NCBI GenBank assembly: GCA_035268685.1 | Contig: DATFKK010000157.1 | Location: forward strand, 1-53,862 | Source of the DNA: Candidatus Krumholzibacteriia bacterium | Lineage (GTDB): Bacteria > Krumholzibacteriota > Krumholzibacteriia > JAJRXK01 | DNA length: 53,862 bases | Direction: 5' to 3' | In this document: positions 15,606-21,257 of the stretch, piece by piece | Numbering within the stretch: the stretch's first letter is position 1 | Layout: the number at the start of each line of letters is the position of its first letter | The notes under the pieces: generated by a model | The model's database searches: none | Told to the model about the DNA's origin: nothing | Seen by the model: only the letters and a program-made list of their open reading frames with translations | Made by a program: the position numbers and the translations under genes

Positions 15606-16253
15606 ATGTTCGCTGCCATGTCCGACGATCTGCGCATCCGGTCGCTGGCCCGCCGCCTGGCCGAGGCTCTTCCGGGCGACACCGCCAAGGCAGCCCTGGC
15701 TCCGCGGCCGGCCCGGGGACGGCTGGGTCGACCACCCGATCCCGGGGCACGCGCGGCCGCCGTGCTGGTCCTGCTGGTCCCCGAGGCGGGGGCTCTGCAC
15801 CTGCCCCTGCTGCGGCGCCGCTCCATCGCCGGAGACGTCCACGGCGGGCAGATCGCGCTACCCGGCGGGGGCGTCGAGGTGGGAGAGACGGTGGTGGATG
15901 CCGCCCTGCGCGAGGCCCACGAGGAACTCGGGATCGAGCCCGACACGGTCGACGTGCTCGGCCGCCTGAGTCCGCAGTGGATCCCGGTCAGCGGATACCG
16001 CGTCGAGCCGGTCGTGGGGACGGCCGCCGTCCGGCCCGACCTACGCCCCGACCCGTCGGAGGTCGACGGGGCGTTCTGGACGGACCTCGACACCCTGGTG
16101 CGGACGCGTCCGACGGTGCGCGAGCGACGCCGCGTCGAAGGGTTGATGCAGATGCCCGGTTGGGAGCTCCCGCACGGTTTCCTTTGGGGGGCCACCGCCA
16201 TGATCCTGGCCGAACTGCTGGCGGTGATCCCTCCGCGGCGAGCGGGTCAGTAG
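15606..16253 (+). CDS. Nudix hydrolase, CoA pyrophosphatase (NudL)-like
   Basis: A 215-residue Nudix protein. The Nudix box runs from Gly88 to Ile110 and has all conserved residues (G-x5-E-x7-REAHEELGI). The preceding 'RRSIAGDVHGGQIALPGGG' is the extra motif of the CoA/NudL subgroup, which splits CoA and acyl-CoA into 4'-phosphopantetheine products and adenosine 3',5'-bisphosphate. A second possible start is ATG 15618; neither has a clear ribosome-binding site. Its 3' end overlaps the convergent kinase gene by seven bases. Confidence 0.85.
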   Translation: MFAAMSDDLRIRSLARRLAEALPGDTAKAALAPRPARGRLGRPPDPGARAAAVLVLLVPEAGALHLPLLRRRSIAGDVHGGQIALPGGGVEVGETVVDAALREAHEELGIEPDTVDVLGRLSPQWIPVSGYRVEPVVGTAAVRPDLRPDPSEVDGAFWTDLDTLVRTRPTVRERRRVEGLMQMPGWELPHGFLWGATAMILAELLAVIPPRRAGQ

Positions 16254-17914
16254 GTTCCGCTGGAGTCGACGCCGGCACCCGTGGGCGCCGCGCTCGTGTC
16301 GCTGGCTGCGGTGGTGTGCGTCGGGCCGGCCGGCTCCGTCCGTGGCGGGAACGGCTCGCCGCCGCCGGTCGGGTCGACGACACCGGGACTCGATCCCCCC
16401 AGCCACGTCGCGACGCGCGTACCCACGACTTCGTTCAACGGGGGAACGACTCCCGCCCGGTGGAGCAGCCCGTAGCCGGCGAAGCCCACGACGAGCAGCG
16501 CGAGGATCGCGGGGATCACGAGCGACACCAGCGAACGGGCCGAGGAGCGTGGTCGTCGCAGACGCCGCGGACTCCCGGTCGCGAGATCGGGGTCCTGATC
16601 GAGCGACGTGCGGGAGGCGTCGGCGCCGAGCGGGCGGACGGGCCGTGAACTCCGGGCCCGGCGGGCTGCCTCCCGCGCGATCTGTTCCTCGCGGGTGAGT
16701 GGATCGGCTCGCAGGGCGTCCTCTTCGCCGCGGGCGACGTCCTGCCACTGCTCGCTGGTGGACCGGATCGGCAGCGCGCCGGAGACCGGCGCCGATGCAG
16801 TCTCGGGCGGCTCGGGCCCGAGGATCATGTCGGGTGGAGCTCCGCTCGATCCCGAAGACGGACCGGGGCCCGAGCGTGCCGTCGCCACCCGGGGCGCACC
16901 ACGGCTGTCGTACTCGACCACGTCCTGCACCACCACGTCGTCGCCCGTGTCGACGTTCGTCGCCCCCGATCGCGATCCCGGCGACGGAGCGTTCGACCGC
17001 CGTCCGACACGGCCGGCGTTGTGCGGACGATGCGCCAGCGAGCCACTGCGGTCGGCCAGACCGCTCGACAGCTCCGAGATCAGGTCGCGTGGGCCTGCCT
17101 CGACGGTCGGTTCCACGAACTGCAGCTCGTCGCGGATGTGCTGCATCGAGGGCCAGCGCTGCTCCGGGGCCTTCGTCATGCAGGCGCGTACGATCTGCTC
17201 GAGAGCCGGGGGAACGTCGCGGCGCAGATCGCGAAGGGCGTCGGGCTGGGTGTTGATGATCGATTGGAGGATGGCGAGGTCGTTCGACGCGGTGAACGGC
17301 GGTCGACCGGTGATCATCTCGTAGAGCAGGCTGCCGAACGAGAAGATGTCGCTGGCCGGACCCAGCGTGCGGCCCTGCGCCTGTTCCGGCGACATGTACT
17401 GGACCGTGCCGTAGGTGTTCGGGCCCTGCGTGTGCACGACGCGCTCGGGGCGCACGGCCAGACCGAAGTCCATGACCTTGACCTCGCCCCGCCGCGAGAT
17501 CATCACGTTCGCCGGCTTCAGATCGCGGTGGACGATGCCCTGCTCGTGGGCGGCCTGCATGGCGGCCGCGATGTCGGCCCCCACCCGTGCGATCTGGTGG
17601 AGCGTCAGCGGGCCCCGGGCCACGAGCTGCTTGAGCGTGGCGCCGTCGACGTACTCCATGCACAGGGCGAAGATTCCCCCGTCCTCCTCGATCGAGTGGA
17701 CGACGGCGATGTTCGGGTGCTGGACGCGCGAGACCGAGCGGGCCTCGTCGAGCAGCCGCCCCTGTGCGCTCGGGTCCCGGAGCAGGTCGCGCGGCAGGAA
17801 CTTGAGGGCGACCTTCCGCTCGAGCGTGGTGTCGAGCGCGAGGTAGACCTCGCCCATCCCGCCCTTGCCGAGCAGCTCGAGGATCCGGAAGTGCTTGAAC
17901 GTCTGCGGACTCAT
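16247..17914 (-). CDS. Membrane-anchored Ser/Thr protein kinase (Pkn type)
   Basis: A 555-residue Hanks-type kinase. With the start at 17914 the Gly loop is 'GKGGMGEVY' (16-24), the ATP lysine is Lys38, the catalytic loop 'HRDLKPAN' has Asp131, and 'DFG' is at 149-151, so the kinase domain is complete. It is followed by a long Pro/Ser/Arg-rich linker, one membrane helix near residues 465-485 and a ~65-residue outer tail rich in Pro, Gly and Thr with no known sensor domain. An in-frame ATG at 17986 exists, but the 24 codons between include GTT, CTT, ACT, TTT and GAT, unlike the C/G-ending usage of the gene. I take 17914 as the start. It is divergent from the histone-like gene. Confidence 0.9.
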   Translation of the reverse strand: MSPQTFKHFRILELLGKGGMGEVYLALDTTLERKVALKFLPRDLLRDPSAQGRLLDEARSVSRVQHPNIAVVHSIEEDGGIFALCMEYVDGATLKQLVARGPLTLHQIARVGADIAAAMQAAHEQGIVHRDLKPANVMISRRGEVKVMDFGLAVRPERVVHTQGPNTYGTVQYMSPEQAQGRTLGPASDIFSFGSLLYEMITGRPPFTASNDLAILQSIINTQPDALRDLRRDVPPALEQIVRACMTKAPEQRWPSMQHIRDELQFVEPTVEAGPRDLISELSSGLADRSGSLAHRPHNAGRVGRRSNAPSPGSRSGATNVDTGDDVVVQDVVEYDSRGAPRVATARSGPGPSSGSSGAPPDMILGPEPPETASAPVSGALPIRSTSEQWQDVARGEEDALRADPLTREEQIAREAARRARSSRPVRPLGADASRTSLDQDPDLATGSPRRLRRPRSSARSLVSLVIPAILALLVVGFAGYGLLHRAGVVPPLNEVVGTRVATWLGGSSPGVVDPTGGGEPFPPRTEPAGPTHTTAASDTSAAPTGAGVDSSGTY

Positions 17915-18130
17915 GGCGCTGGGGCTGGAATCAACAAAAGTGCCAAGAACGGCCTTCGCGGGCGGGATCGGGGCGCTTTCCGGCATTCTGGGCAGAGGGG
18001 CCTCCCGGGGGCCCGCAACGGCGGATCCGAGCCGATGGATTTCTGTCCGTACTTTGACCGGGCTGGCCCGTGGGGGTGGGCGACCGGTCGTTTTTGCACG
18101 GCAGGCGCCCGAAACGGCCGGGAAAAGGGT

Positions 18131-18158
18131 TTGACAGCATTCCCGCGGGCGATATTCA
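18131..18158 (+). promoter_or_regulatory. Sigma70-type promoter for the histone-like gene
   Basis: TTGACA (18131-18136), a 16-base spacer and TATTCA (18153-18158). It lies in the region between the kinase start and the histone-like gene. The perfect -35 element suggests strong expression, as expected for an abundant chromatin protein. Confidence 0.6.
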
Positions 18159-18214
18159 CTTCGGCCGCCGCCGTGCAGGCGCAGGATTTCCCTACGAACA
18201 GAGGAGTGCCATCC

Positions 18215-18385
18215 ATGGCCGATCTGATCATCTCGAAGGCTCGCACCAAGGAAGCGGTGTCGGAGCTCAACGTGTCCGGTGAATTCTACGAGGCCCTCGA
18301 CGCGAAGGTGCGCGAGCTGATCGCCGCCGCAGAGAAGCGTGCCCAGGGCAACGGCCGCAAGACCCTGCGGGCCTACGACCTCTAG
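18215..18385 (+). CDS. Small histone-fold protein (bacterial histone, HBb-like)
   Basis: A 56-residue protein with GAGGAG at 18201-18206 and an ATG start. Its sequence reads as helix-loop-long helix-loop-stub: 'VSGEFYEALDAKVRELI' and 'RAQGNGRKTLRAYDL'. The ending matches the archaeal histone 'GRKTIKAEDI' pattern, including the Arg-Lys-Thr of loop L2 and an Arg48-Asp55 pair seven residues apart as in the histone R-D clamp (Arg52-Asp59 of HMfB). Stopping right after this Asp-Leu agrees with the short bacterial histones of the Bdellovibrio Bd0055 type, which have a reduced third helix and bend DNA as dimers. Basic residues are spread over both ends (Lys8, Arg10, Lys12, Lys41, Arg42, Arg48, Lys49, Arg52). 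The family match rests on recalled motifs, not a search. Confidence 0.8.
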   Translation: MADLIISKARTKEAVSELNVSGEFYEALDAKVRELIAAAEKRAQGNGRKTLRAYDL

Positions 18386-18504
18386 CCCACGTCCACGGAT
18401 CGTCGGCGCGGCGTCGATCGCCGGGCCGTCACGCCTCGCGAGACCGTCCTCCGTGCGCCGCGACGTCGTACCACGGCCGGAGTCGGACGGATAGCCGGAG
18501 ATCC

Positions 18505-18532
18505 ACGGCCGGAGACAGGCGTCTCCGGCCGT
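18505..18532. terminator. Perfect 12-bp hairpin between convergent genes
   Basis: ACGGCCGGAGAC (18505-18516), loop AGGC, GTCTCCGGCCGT (18521-18532). It separates the histone-like gene from the dipeptide epimerase and is likely a bidirectional terminator. The rest of 18386-18550 shows no gene. Confidence 0.8.
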
Positions 18533-18550
18533 CTCCGTTCCACTGCGTCG

Positions 18551-19573
18551 TCAGACCACCGCGCGCTCGACACCCAGGCCGGGTCCGGTCCCCGGCTTCA
18601 CGCGGCCGCCGTCGACGCGCGCCCCGCGGAAGGGATCGTCGGCCAGCAGCGCTGCACCGTCGAGGTCCACCCAACGGGCCAGGGGGGCAAGGTGGGCGGC
18701 GGCGCTGATCCCCACGCTGCTCTCGACGAAGCACCCGAGCAACACGTCGAGACCGACGCTACGGGCGGCGTGGATCCAGCGGACGGCTTCGCGGATTCCA
18801 CCCAGGCGCGTGAGCTTCACGTTGACCCCGTCGTAGGCGCGGGCCAGGTCGTCGAGGGCGACACCCGTGAGGACGTCTTCGTCGGCGACCAGGGGAATCG
18901 GGCTCATGGCACGGAGCGCGGCGGTGGCGTCGAAGTCACCGGCCGGAAAGGGCTGTTCGATCAGCTCGCAGCCGCGCTCGGCGAGCCAGGCGGCACGCGC
19001 GGGGGCTTCGGCCTCGGACCACGACTCGTTGGCGTCGACGCGGAAGGGGCGGTCGGTCACCGCCCGCAGTCGGTCGACCGTCGCCTCGTCGTCCGCACCA
19101 CCGCCGAGCTTGACCTTCAGGACCGGCCAGTCGCCCGCCTCGCGCACGCGGGCTTCGACGGCGTCGGGATCGTCGATCGAGATCGTCCACGAGCTCGGTG
19201 CGACGTCCGTGGCTTCGATCGACAGCATGGTGCCGAGTGTGCGACCGAGCGTGCGCCCGGCCCAGTCCCAGAGGGCCATCTCCAGGGCGCACCGGCCCGC
19301 GGTCTGGCCGGGATTCGCACGGTCGAAGGCCTGCAGCCATGTGTTCTGGTCGAAGGGGGCGGCGGTGGGCAACGCGAAGGAGCGCAGGGCGGTGAGTGCG
19401 GATTCCTGGCTCTGTCCGTAGCGCGGGATCGGTGCACCCTCACCCCGACCGACGACCCCTCCGTTCTCGATCTCGACCAGGACGTTCCGGGCGACGGTCT
19501 TCGTGTCACGGCTCGTGCGGAAGGCACGGGCCAGCGGCAGGTCGAGAGCGTGGGCACGCAGTTCGGTGGTCAT
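18551..19573 (-). CDS. Dipeptide epimerase (enolase superfamily, MLE subgroup)
   Basis: A 340-residue enolase-superfamily enzyme with the acid/base lysines 'KVK' (Lys153/Lys155), metal ligands Asp180 ('DAN'), Glu206 ('IEQPF') and Asp231 ('ADED'), and Lys253 in 'NVKLTRLGG'. A 'DLD' motif (303-305) after 'CFVESSVGISAAAHLA' is what separates dipeptide epimerases from o-succinylbenzoate synthases. It probably interconverts L-Ala-D/L-Glu or a related peptide from peptidoglycan recycling. ATG 19573 has a weak GAGG upstream. No menaquinone or murein genes are adjacent. Confidence 0.85.
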   Translation of the reverse strand: MTTELRAHALDLPLARAFRTSRDTKTVARNVLVEIENGGVVGRGEGAPIPRYGQSQESALTALRSFALPTAAPFDQNTWLQAFDRANPGQTAGRCALEMALWDWAGRTLGRTLGTMLSIEATDVAPSSWTISIDDPDAVEARVREAGDWPVLKVKLGGGADDEATVDRLRAVTDRPFRVDANESWSEAEAPARAAWLAERGCELIEQPFPAGDFDATAALRAMSPIPLVADEDVLTGVALDDLARAYDGVNVKLTRLGGIREAVRWIHAARSVGLDVLLGCFVESSVGISAAAHLAPLARWVDLDGAALLADDPFRGARVDGGRVKPGTGPGLGVERAVV

Positions 19574-19627
19574 GGCGACCTCGCGGGCGGGAGTGTCGGG
19601 GACCCTTGCCCCGGCGACGGGCGGCGG

Positions 19628-19733: not shown

Positions 19734-21257
19734 GTGTCCGCACCCACCGTTCGCGCGAACCTCGCGCGGGTCCTCTCGGGCACACTCCACGGCATCGAAG
19801 GCCGGCGCGTCCGCGTCGAGGTCGACGTCGCCTCGTCGTTGCCCGGATTCTCGCTCGTCGGCCTTCCCAGCGCCGCACTCCGCGAGAGTCGCGAGCGTGT
19901 CGGCGCCGCGTTGCGCAACGCGGGCTTCCGTTGGCCCGAGGGGCGGATCACCGTCAGCCTGGCTCCGGCCGATCTCCGCAAGGACGGCGCGGCCATGGAC
20001 CTGGCCATCGCCGTCGCCCTGCTGCTCGCCTCGGGGCAGATCCCGCGGCCGCGCGGTGACGTGCTGCGCCGCACGCTCTTCGTGGGGGAGCTGGCCCTCG
20101 ACGGGGCGTTGCGCCCGGCCCGTGGAACCCTTGCCCTGGCCCTGGACGCCGCGAGCCTCGGTGTCGACCGCATGGTCGTGCCGGCGTGCGAGGCCCACGA
20201 ACTGCGCGACGTGGACGACGTGACGCTGCTTCCGGTGGGGCACCTGCGAGACCTCGGCCGGGGGCTCGCGTCGGCGGCCGGATGCGTCGCCGGTGCGCGT
20301 GGTCCGGACGATCCTCCCCAGCCGCCGGATCCCCGACGGGTGGCGCGCGCGCTGCTCGAGGTCCGCGGTCAGGCGCGGGCCAGACGTGCGCTGCTCATCG
20401 CCGCGGCCGGCGGACACGGGCTGGTCCTGCAGGGGCCCCCCGGATGTGGCAAGACCATGCTCGCGCGCCGTCTGGCGTCGCTCCTGCCGGACCTCGATCG
20501 CGATACGGCGCGCATCTGCCGTCGCGTGCGCAGCAGCTGCGGACTTCCCGCCGATGCCGACCGGCGCCCGCCCCTGCGCGCTCCGCACCACACCGTCAGC
20601 GCCGTGGGTCTGATCGGTGGGGGGCGACCCGTCCGGGCCGGTGAGATCACGCTGGCCCACGGCGGCGTCCTGCTCCTCGACGAGATCGTCGAGTTCGGAT
20701 CCGAGCGGCTGGAACGTCTGCGCGAGCCCATGACCGACGGCCGGATCGAGCTGGTGCGCGCGGGCGAACGTGTCGGTCTGCCCGCGCGGTTCCAGCTCGT
20801 GGCCACGGCCAATCCGTGCCCGTGCGGGTGGGCGGGCAGTCACCTCGAGCGCTGTCGTTGCCCCGTGCACGTGGTGGAACGCTACCGGCGACGGCTGTCG
20901 GGTCCTCTGCGCGACCGCATCGATCTGTGGATCGAGATGGACCGGGAACCCGCGGACGCGCTCTTCGACGAAGAGCCCCTGGATAGTTGGGTGGACCGCG
21001 TGGAGCGGGTGCGGTCGGTGCGACGCACGAGCGATCGGGAGCGTGCGCGGTCCGAGGGGGATCCGTCACCCGAGGACATCCGGGCCGACGACGAGGCGCG
21101 ATCCTTCGCAGCCGCGGTGGCCGATCACCGCGGCCTGAGCGTGCGGGCGCTGGTCCACGCCATGCGGGTGGCGCGGACGATCGCCCGGCTCGACGGCGTG
21201 GACTGCGTGCGTCGACGGGATCTCGCCGAGGCCTTCACGTATCGACCCGCGCCGTGA
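19734..21257 (+). CDS. comM: ComM/YifB family Mg-chelatase-like AAA+ ATPase
   Basis: A 507-residue protein with the three usual parts: N-terminal ChlI fold ('VDVASSLPGFSLVGLP', 'LAPADLRKDGAAMDLAIA'), AAA+ core with Walker A 'GPPGCGKTML' (234-243), Walker B 'VLLLDEI' and 'ATANPCPCG', and the C-terminal Mg-chelatase domain with 'LSVRALVHAMRVARTIARLDG'. ComM is a hexameric helicase that promotes branch migration in natural transformation. The segment after the 'LPDL' helix is more Arg-rich than usual. GTG start. Confidence 0.93.
   Translation: MSAPTVRANLARVLSGTLHGIEGRRVRVEVDVASSLPGFSLVGLPSAALRESRERVGAALRNAGFRWPEGRITVSLAPADLRKDGAAMDLAIAVALLLASGQIPRPRGDVLRRTLFVGELALDGALRPARGTLALALDAASLGVDRMVVPACEAHELRDVDDVTLLPVGHLRDLGRGLASAAGCVAGARGPDDPPQPPDPRRVARALLEVRGQARARRALLIAAAGGHGLVLQGPPGCGKTMLARRLASLLPDLDRDTARICRRVRSSCGLPADADRRPPLRAPHHTVSAVGLIGGGRPVRAGEITLAHGGVLLLDEIVEFGSERLERLREPMTDGRIELVRAGERVGLPARFQLVATANPCPCGWAGSHLERCRCPVHVVERYRRRLSGPLRDRIDLWIEMDREPADALFDEEPLDSWVDRVERVRSVRRTSDRERARSEGDPSPEDIRADDEARSFAAAVADHRGLSVRALVHAMRVARTIARLDGVDCVRRRDLAEAFTYRPAP

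Follow-up and report, generated by a model that had tools for sequence, protein, structure and literature searches.

A predicted tail-less histone of the face-to-face type in Krumholzibacteriota

Introduction

Histones are reportedly present in fewer than 2% of bacterial genomes. The α3 histones, as described by Schwab et al. (2024), have an α3 helix cut to 3–4 residues, an α2 helix that is 4–5 residues shorter than in nucleosomal histones, and the motif RxTxxxxD. Among them, face-to-face (FtF) histones are defined by a torus tetramer, predicted or solved. In their profile, conservation is strongest at R48, N52, R54, T56, and D61, with K16 also conserved, whereas the bacterial dimer histones are without R48 and N52; HTkC of Thermococcus kodakarensis (TK1040; structure 9F2C) belongs to the FtF group (PMC11390915). 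In the bacterial histone HLp, R49, N53, and R55 sit at the dimer-dimer interface, the DNA contacts include K15, K17, G29, and T57, and S28 is a dimer contact (PMC12701072). Bacterial FtF histones with positively charged tails are also known (PMC11390915).

In the main texts of the published surveys, FtF histones are named mainly in Spirochaetota, Planctomycetota, Bdellovibrionota, and Myxococcota, and a literature search retrieved, survey supplements aside, no paper pairing Krumholzibacteriota with histones. Here we describe a gene of this phylum whose product probably belongs to the FtF histones; what is new is the lineage, which those main texts leave unnamed, the kind of histone itself being already known.

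Results

The gene lies in a stretch of 53,862 nucleotides (contig DATFKK010000157.1, hereafter the window) from a Krumholzibacteriota MAG of 4.59 Mb (genome G000). An earlier note, made from the letters of the window, had proposed a 56-residue histone-like protein; sequence matches, profile, and predicted fold all bear this out. The protein is MADLIISKARTKEAVSELNVSGEFYEALDAKVRELIAAAEKRAQGNGRKTLRAYDL (56 aa), and the gene and its diagnostic codons are as follows.

18215–18385, + strand: histone gene, 56 codons, for a tail-less protein predicted to be an α3, FtF-type histone
18248–18250, + strand: codon of K12, the conserved α1 lysine, near-invariant (at least 90% in the 29-row alignment)
18338–18352, + strand: codons 42–46, spanning R42 and N46, which mark FtF (tetramer) histones and are invariant in the 29-row alignment and absent from HBb and HBb-like proteins
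18356–18382, + strand: loop L2 and short α3, RKTLRAYDL, with the RD clamp R48–D55 and the predicted DNA-contact T50

Reality of the gene

Accidental long ORFs are plentiful in the surrounding GC-rich DNA, as listed for the window, so the reality of the histone ORF had to rest on conservation. Database searches retrieved 56-residue orthologues with 57–80% identity in records titled Krumholzibacteriota or Krumholzibacteriia, Eisenbacteria, Planctomycetota, Elusimicrobia, or in some cases only "bacterium", as well as tailed homologues with 58–76% identity in records titled Myxococcales, Planctomycetota, Deltaproteobacteria, and Proteobacteria. The median dN/dS of the orthologues is 0.17 (938 pairs, which are not independent), a value that reflects purifying selection, and the start codon, ribosome-binding site, and −35 box are all conserved among relatives. 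This conservation shows that the ORF is a genuine histone gene and refutes an origin as one more chance ORF of the kind common in the window, a reading so improbable that it was dropped. A stray, horizontally acquired gene was likewise dropped, given that both locus and family are conserved across the class.

Sequence and fold matches

With the single sequence, Pfam and NCBIfam gave sub-threshold matches only (DUF1931, PF09123, at 16.8 bits for a cut-off of 21.8), so Pfam-based surveys would miss this protein. The earlier note had suggested a profile search and a structure prediction as checks, and in both the leading PDB matches were histones. A phmmer search of the PDB with the single sequence gave E-values of 5.5e-9 for HTkC (9F2C), 0.035 for HBb, and 0.26 for HLp; the 29-row profile improved these to 8e-18, 1e-11, and 8e-11, respectively, with HBb scoring a little higher (48.5 bits) than HLp (45.6 bits) and no unrelated family on top. 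AF2, run on the same alignment, produced a single-chain model with a pLDDT of 92.3 and a histone fold (α1 8–14, α2 22–45, α3 52–54), for which Foldseek ranked HTkC, HBb, and HLp first in the PDB, with TM-scores of 0.81–0.88; true nucleosomal histones ranked far lower.

By AF2/DSSP, the α3 helix is truncated to 3 residues and α2 is short at 24 residues; when the profile is aligned with HmvA, a non-canonical histone from archaea, a gap of 4 residues has to be opened in α2. R48, T50, and D55 of the RxTxxxxD motif are invariant. The L2 motif RKTLRAYDL, the Arg-Asp pair seven residues apart (R48 and D55), and the shortened third helix, all singled out in the earlier note, are thus present, the last as predicted. 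On sequence and model, the window protein is an α3-type histone.

Face-to-face or dimer histone

Five columns, and only these, are invariant among the 29 homologues: R42, N46, R48, T50, and D55. These are the counterparts of the five positions most strongly conserved in FtF histones (PMC11390915), with R42 and N46 matching R48 and N52 of that profile. K12, conserved at 90% or more, corresponds to its K16; other counterparts are K11 of Haloferax D4GZE0 and K17 of HLp (PMC11390915, PMC12701072). The earlier note had placed the protein with the Bd0055-type histones of Bdellovibrio, that is, with HBb, which would make it a DNA-bending histone that binds in dimeric form. Both proteins do share a fold (TM-score of ~0.85 to HBb) and the RKTxxxxD motif, and the profile finds HBb with an E-value of 1e-11. 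However, among solved structures the FtF histone HTkC comes closest, with a single-sequence E-value that beats that of HBb by over six orders of magnitude, and the residues at the R42 and N46 positions are S and D in HBb and N and D in HBb-like paralogues from two related families, f2 and f6. A dimer histone of the HBb kind is therefore quite unlikely here.

Since R42 and N46 are present in the window protein and lacking in these HBb-like controls, we place the protein with the FtF histones by its residues; the defining feature of the class is the torus tetramer, so this assignment is one by residues and a single-chain model. HTkC itself has E at the N46 position, which means that N46 is not strictly required and that the signature is not proof. 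A tree of histone cores puts the window protein outside the set formed by HBb, HLp, and HTkC (99/84), although its columns are too few to resolve kinship.

The HBb-like proteins of f2 and f6, e.g. MSDQEVLVVVSKLKNYIRNASGMNTAGN...ENARKDGRKTIMDRDF, occur in genomes that also carry an FtF orthologue, and they cluster with HBb in the core tree (94/92). Three such loci (L077, L088, and L089) encode histones of the bacterial dimer type in FtF-bearing Krumholzibacteriota, indicating that one bacterium can hold both histone classes.

Distribution in the phylum

The histone profile matched in 48 of 80 Krumholzibacteriota genomes and in 30 of the 46 that are of good quality. By family, it was found in 4/4 genomes of f1 (to which the window's genome belongs), 2/2 of f2, 5/6 of f6, and most of f5; matches were rare in f3 and f4 and, within the 80 genomes, absent from f7 and f8. 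Divergent histones with the FtF signature, otherwise rare in these groups, were seen at L031, L032, and L071 (genus g5 of f3), L084 (f4), and L119 (genome G038 of f5). In addition, histones of the FtF type are encoded on six IMG/VR contigs labelled viral (L112–L117); several have a longer N-terminus, and the one from L115 clusters with the tailed histone of Krumholzibacteriota (97/95).

Proteins of the HU/IHF family were present in all 58 close relatives searched, with 1 to 5 in each genome, so the window histone need not be the main packager.

Promoter and gene ends

The following signals flank the histone gene.

18131–18136, + strand: −35 box TTGACA, conserved among relatives
18153–18158, + strand: probable −10 box TATTCA, weak (3/6 consensus matches), after a 16-bp spacer
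18201–18206, + strand: ribosome-binding site GAGGAG, 8 nt before the ATG
18506–18531, + strand: GC-rich hairpin downstream of the gene (11 pairs, 4-nt loop), a possible terminator lacking a T tract

The −35 box and the ribosome-binding site were thus found as the earlier note had them. TTGACA lies 77 to 90 nt upstream of the orthologue in all loci examined from f1 (4/4), f2 (2/2), and f6 (5/5), and it also occurs upstream in Eisenbacteria and several more distant relatives, being absent in most f5 genomes. In upstream DNA so rich in GC, chance would seldom produce such conservation, with the caveat that these genomes share ancestry. The strong promoter that the note inferred holds up in part: the −35 box is conserved, but the −10 hexamer, which recurs in two f6 orthologues, is too poor for any full consensus pair to pass a sigma-70 scan. 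The terminators said to bound the neighbouring units were not recovered, as a terminator scan revealed no T-run terminators on either side of the gene. The region with the downstream hairpin is not unusually structured (z −1.35), and Rfam gave no match at 17900–18700.

Genomic neighborhood

The gene stands alone, as first described, opposite a divergent protein kinase on one side and with a convergent epimerase on the other.

16247–17986, − strand: divergent Ser/Thr protein kinase (Pfam Pkinase), adjoining the histone in 4/4 f1 genomes
18551–19600, − strand: convergent enolase-superfamily (MR/MLE) epimerase, kept beside the histone in f1
19734–21257, + strand: ComM/YifB-type Mg-chelatase-like AAA+ protein, near the histone in f1 and most of f5

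In f1, comM lies beyond the epimerase, at an extrapolated 1.2–1.35 kb from the histone stop. In most f5 genomes, it follows the histone in the same orientation, with an extrapolated gap of 130–340 nt (e.g. L038:5190-6962), and the two genes are possibly co-transcribed there. In f2, f6, and the f5 genera g31 and g33, the 0.6–1.5 kb examined downstream of the histone showed no comM gene. We read the neighborhood as an inherited locus; a functional link to recombination is possible.

The comM neighbor in f1 and most f5 genomes, the HU/IHF proteins of all close relatives searched, and the low net charge of the histone might all indicate a local job, e.g. in ComM-linked recombination or as a regulator, rather than general DNA packaging. 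Nevertheless, the histone persists without comM synteny in f2, f6, f5 genera g31 and g33, and outside the phylum, in f1 a gene of opposite orientation lies between histone and comM, the histone appears to have its own promoter, and its DNA-contact residues are conserved, all of which makes a local job improbable.

A second, tailed histone

The genome of the window encodes a second FtF histone, MAKKVARKKKTAAKKKKTAARRKPAKQQEMLLVGSKTK...KRASANGRKTVRGHDFHV, on another contig (G000:C37); PF00808 and PF09123 searches of this genome revealed no other histone above cut-off.

L120 (G000:C37:12000-26000), contig positions 18236–18493: second histone, whose N-terminal tail is rich in lysine; conserved throughout f1 (4/4 genomes)

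It has orthologues in the other f1 genomes (G001, G002, and G003), 82–98 aa long. In f1, the net charge of the tailed histone is +14 to +24 versus +1 to +3 for its tail-less partner (+1 for the window protein). In the genome of the window, the tailed gene lies upstream of an oxidoreductase-like gene pair, by our reading of the sequence a 2-oxoacid:ferredoxin oxidoreductase; the G001 and G003 regions contain this pair too. Our literature search returned, supplements aside, no description of a tail-less and a tailed histone paired in one cell.

Discussion

We propose, with a probability of roughly 0.75, that the window gene encodes a nucleoid-associated FtF α3 histone whose torus tetramers would wrap ~50–60 bp of DNA beside HU, as conserved residues and analogy with known histones suggest. 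The gene would be transcribed alone from the conserved −35-type promoter. By fold homology, two chains would form a histone handshake dimer, and two dimers would close into a torus via the ends of α2, loop L2, and the stub of α3, using R42, N46, and R48, as judged from the conserved residues together with HTkC and HLp. HLp-DNA crystals suggest how ~50–60 bp of DNA could then run around the tetramer: residues K15, K17, S28, G29, and T57 of HLp align with R10 and K12 (α1), S21 and G22 (L1), and T50 (L2) of the window protein, which may serve as contacts. The histone would act beside the HU/IHF proteins retained in all close relatives.

In f1, the tailed histone may share or divide this work. A two-histone chromatin atop HU, in which a tail-less core and a Lys-tailed FtF histone form mixed tetramers or split into core and linker, is a tentative and rather doubtful idea; if true, it would be a bacterial counterpart to the tailed chromatin of eukaryotes. 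The phylum appears to hold a stable histone locus in several families, beside HU, and its two or three types of histone are distributed along family lines. As a natural series, these families could help to show what a histone contributes to a nucleoid built on HU, and what the basic tails are for.

Comparison with known systems

The DUF1931 (PF09123) pseudodimers match the window protein weakly and below the Pfam cut-off. They are fused doublets without DNA-binding residues (PMC12701072); the match covers positions 20–53 of 138, and this family was rejected for a 56-aa singlet that has DNA-binding residues.

HBb (Bd0055) of Bdellovibrio (PDB 8FVX, 8CMP, 9EZZ, and 9F0E) has in common with the window protein the α3 superfamily fold and RKTxxxxD, but at the dimer-dimer interface it lacks both R and N, and it bends DNA as a dimer.

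HLp of Leptospira perolatii (PDB 9QT0-2), a bacterial FtF histone that wraps ~60 bp, resembles the window protein in its R/N/R tetramer residues, RD clamp, most DNA-contact positions, and fold (TM-score of 0.88). In contrast, identity is 30%, K21, an α1 lysine that HLp uses, is a serine in the window protein, and HLp is the sole histone of a cell without HU, whereas the window lineage keeps HU/IHF and a second, tailed histone.

HTkC is the best match by both sequence and fold (45% identity, TM-score of 0.88), being of the same size, tail-less, and with short α2 and α3 helices; it differs in being archaeal, in having E in place of N46, and in an L1 region ~4 residues longer.
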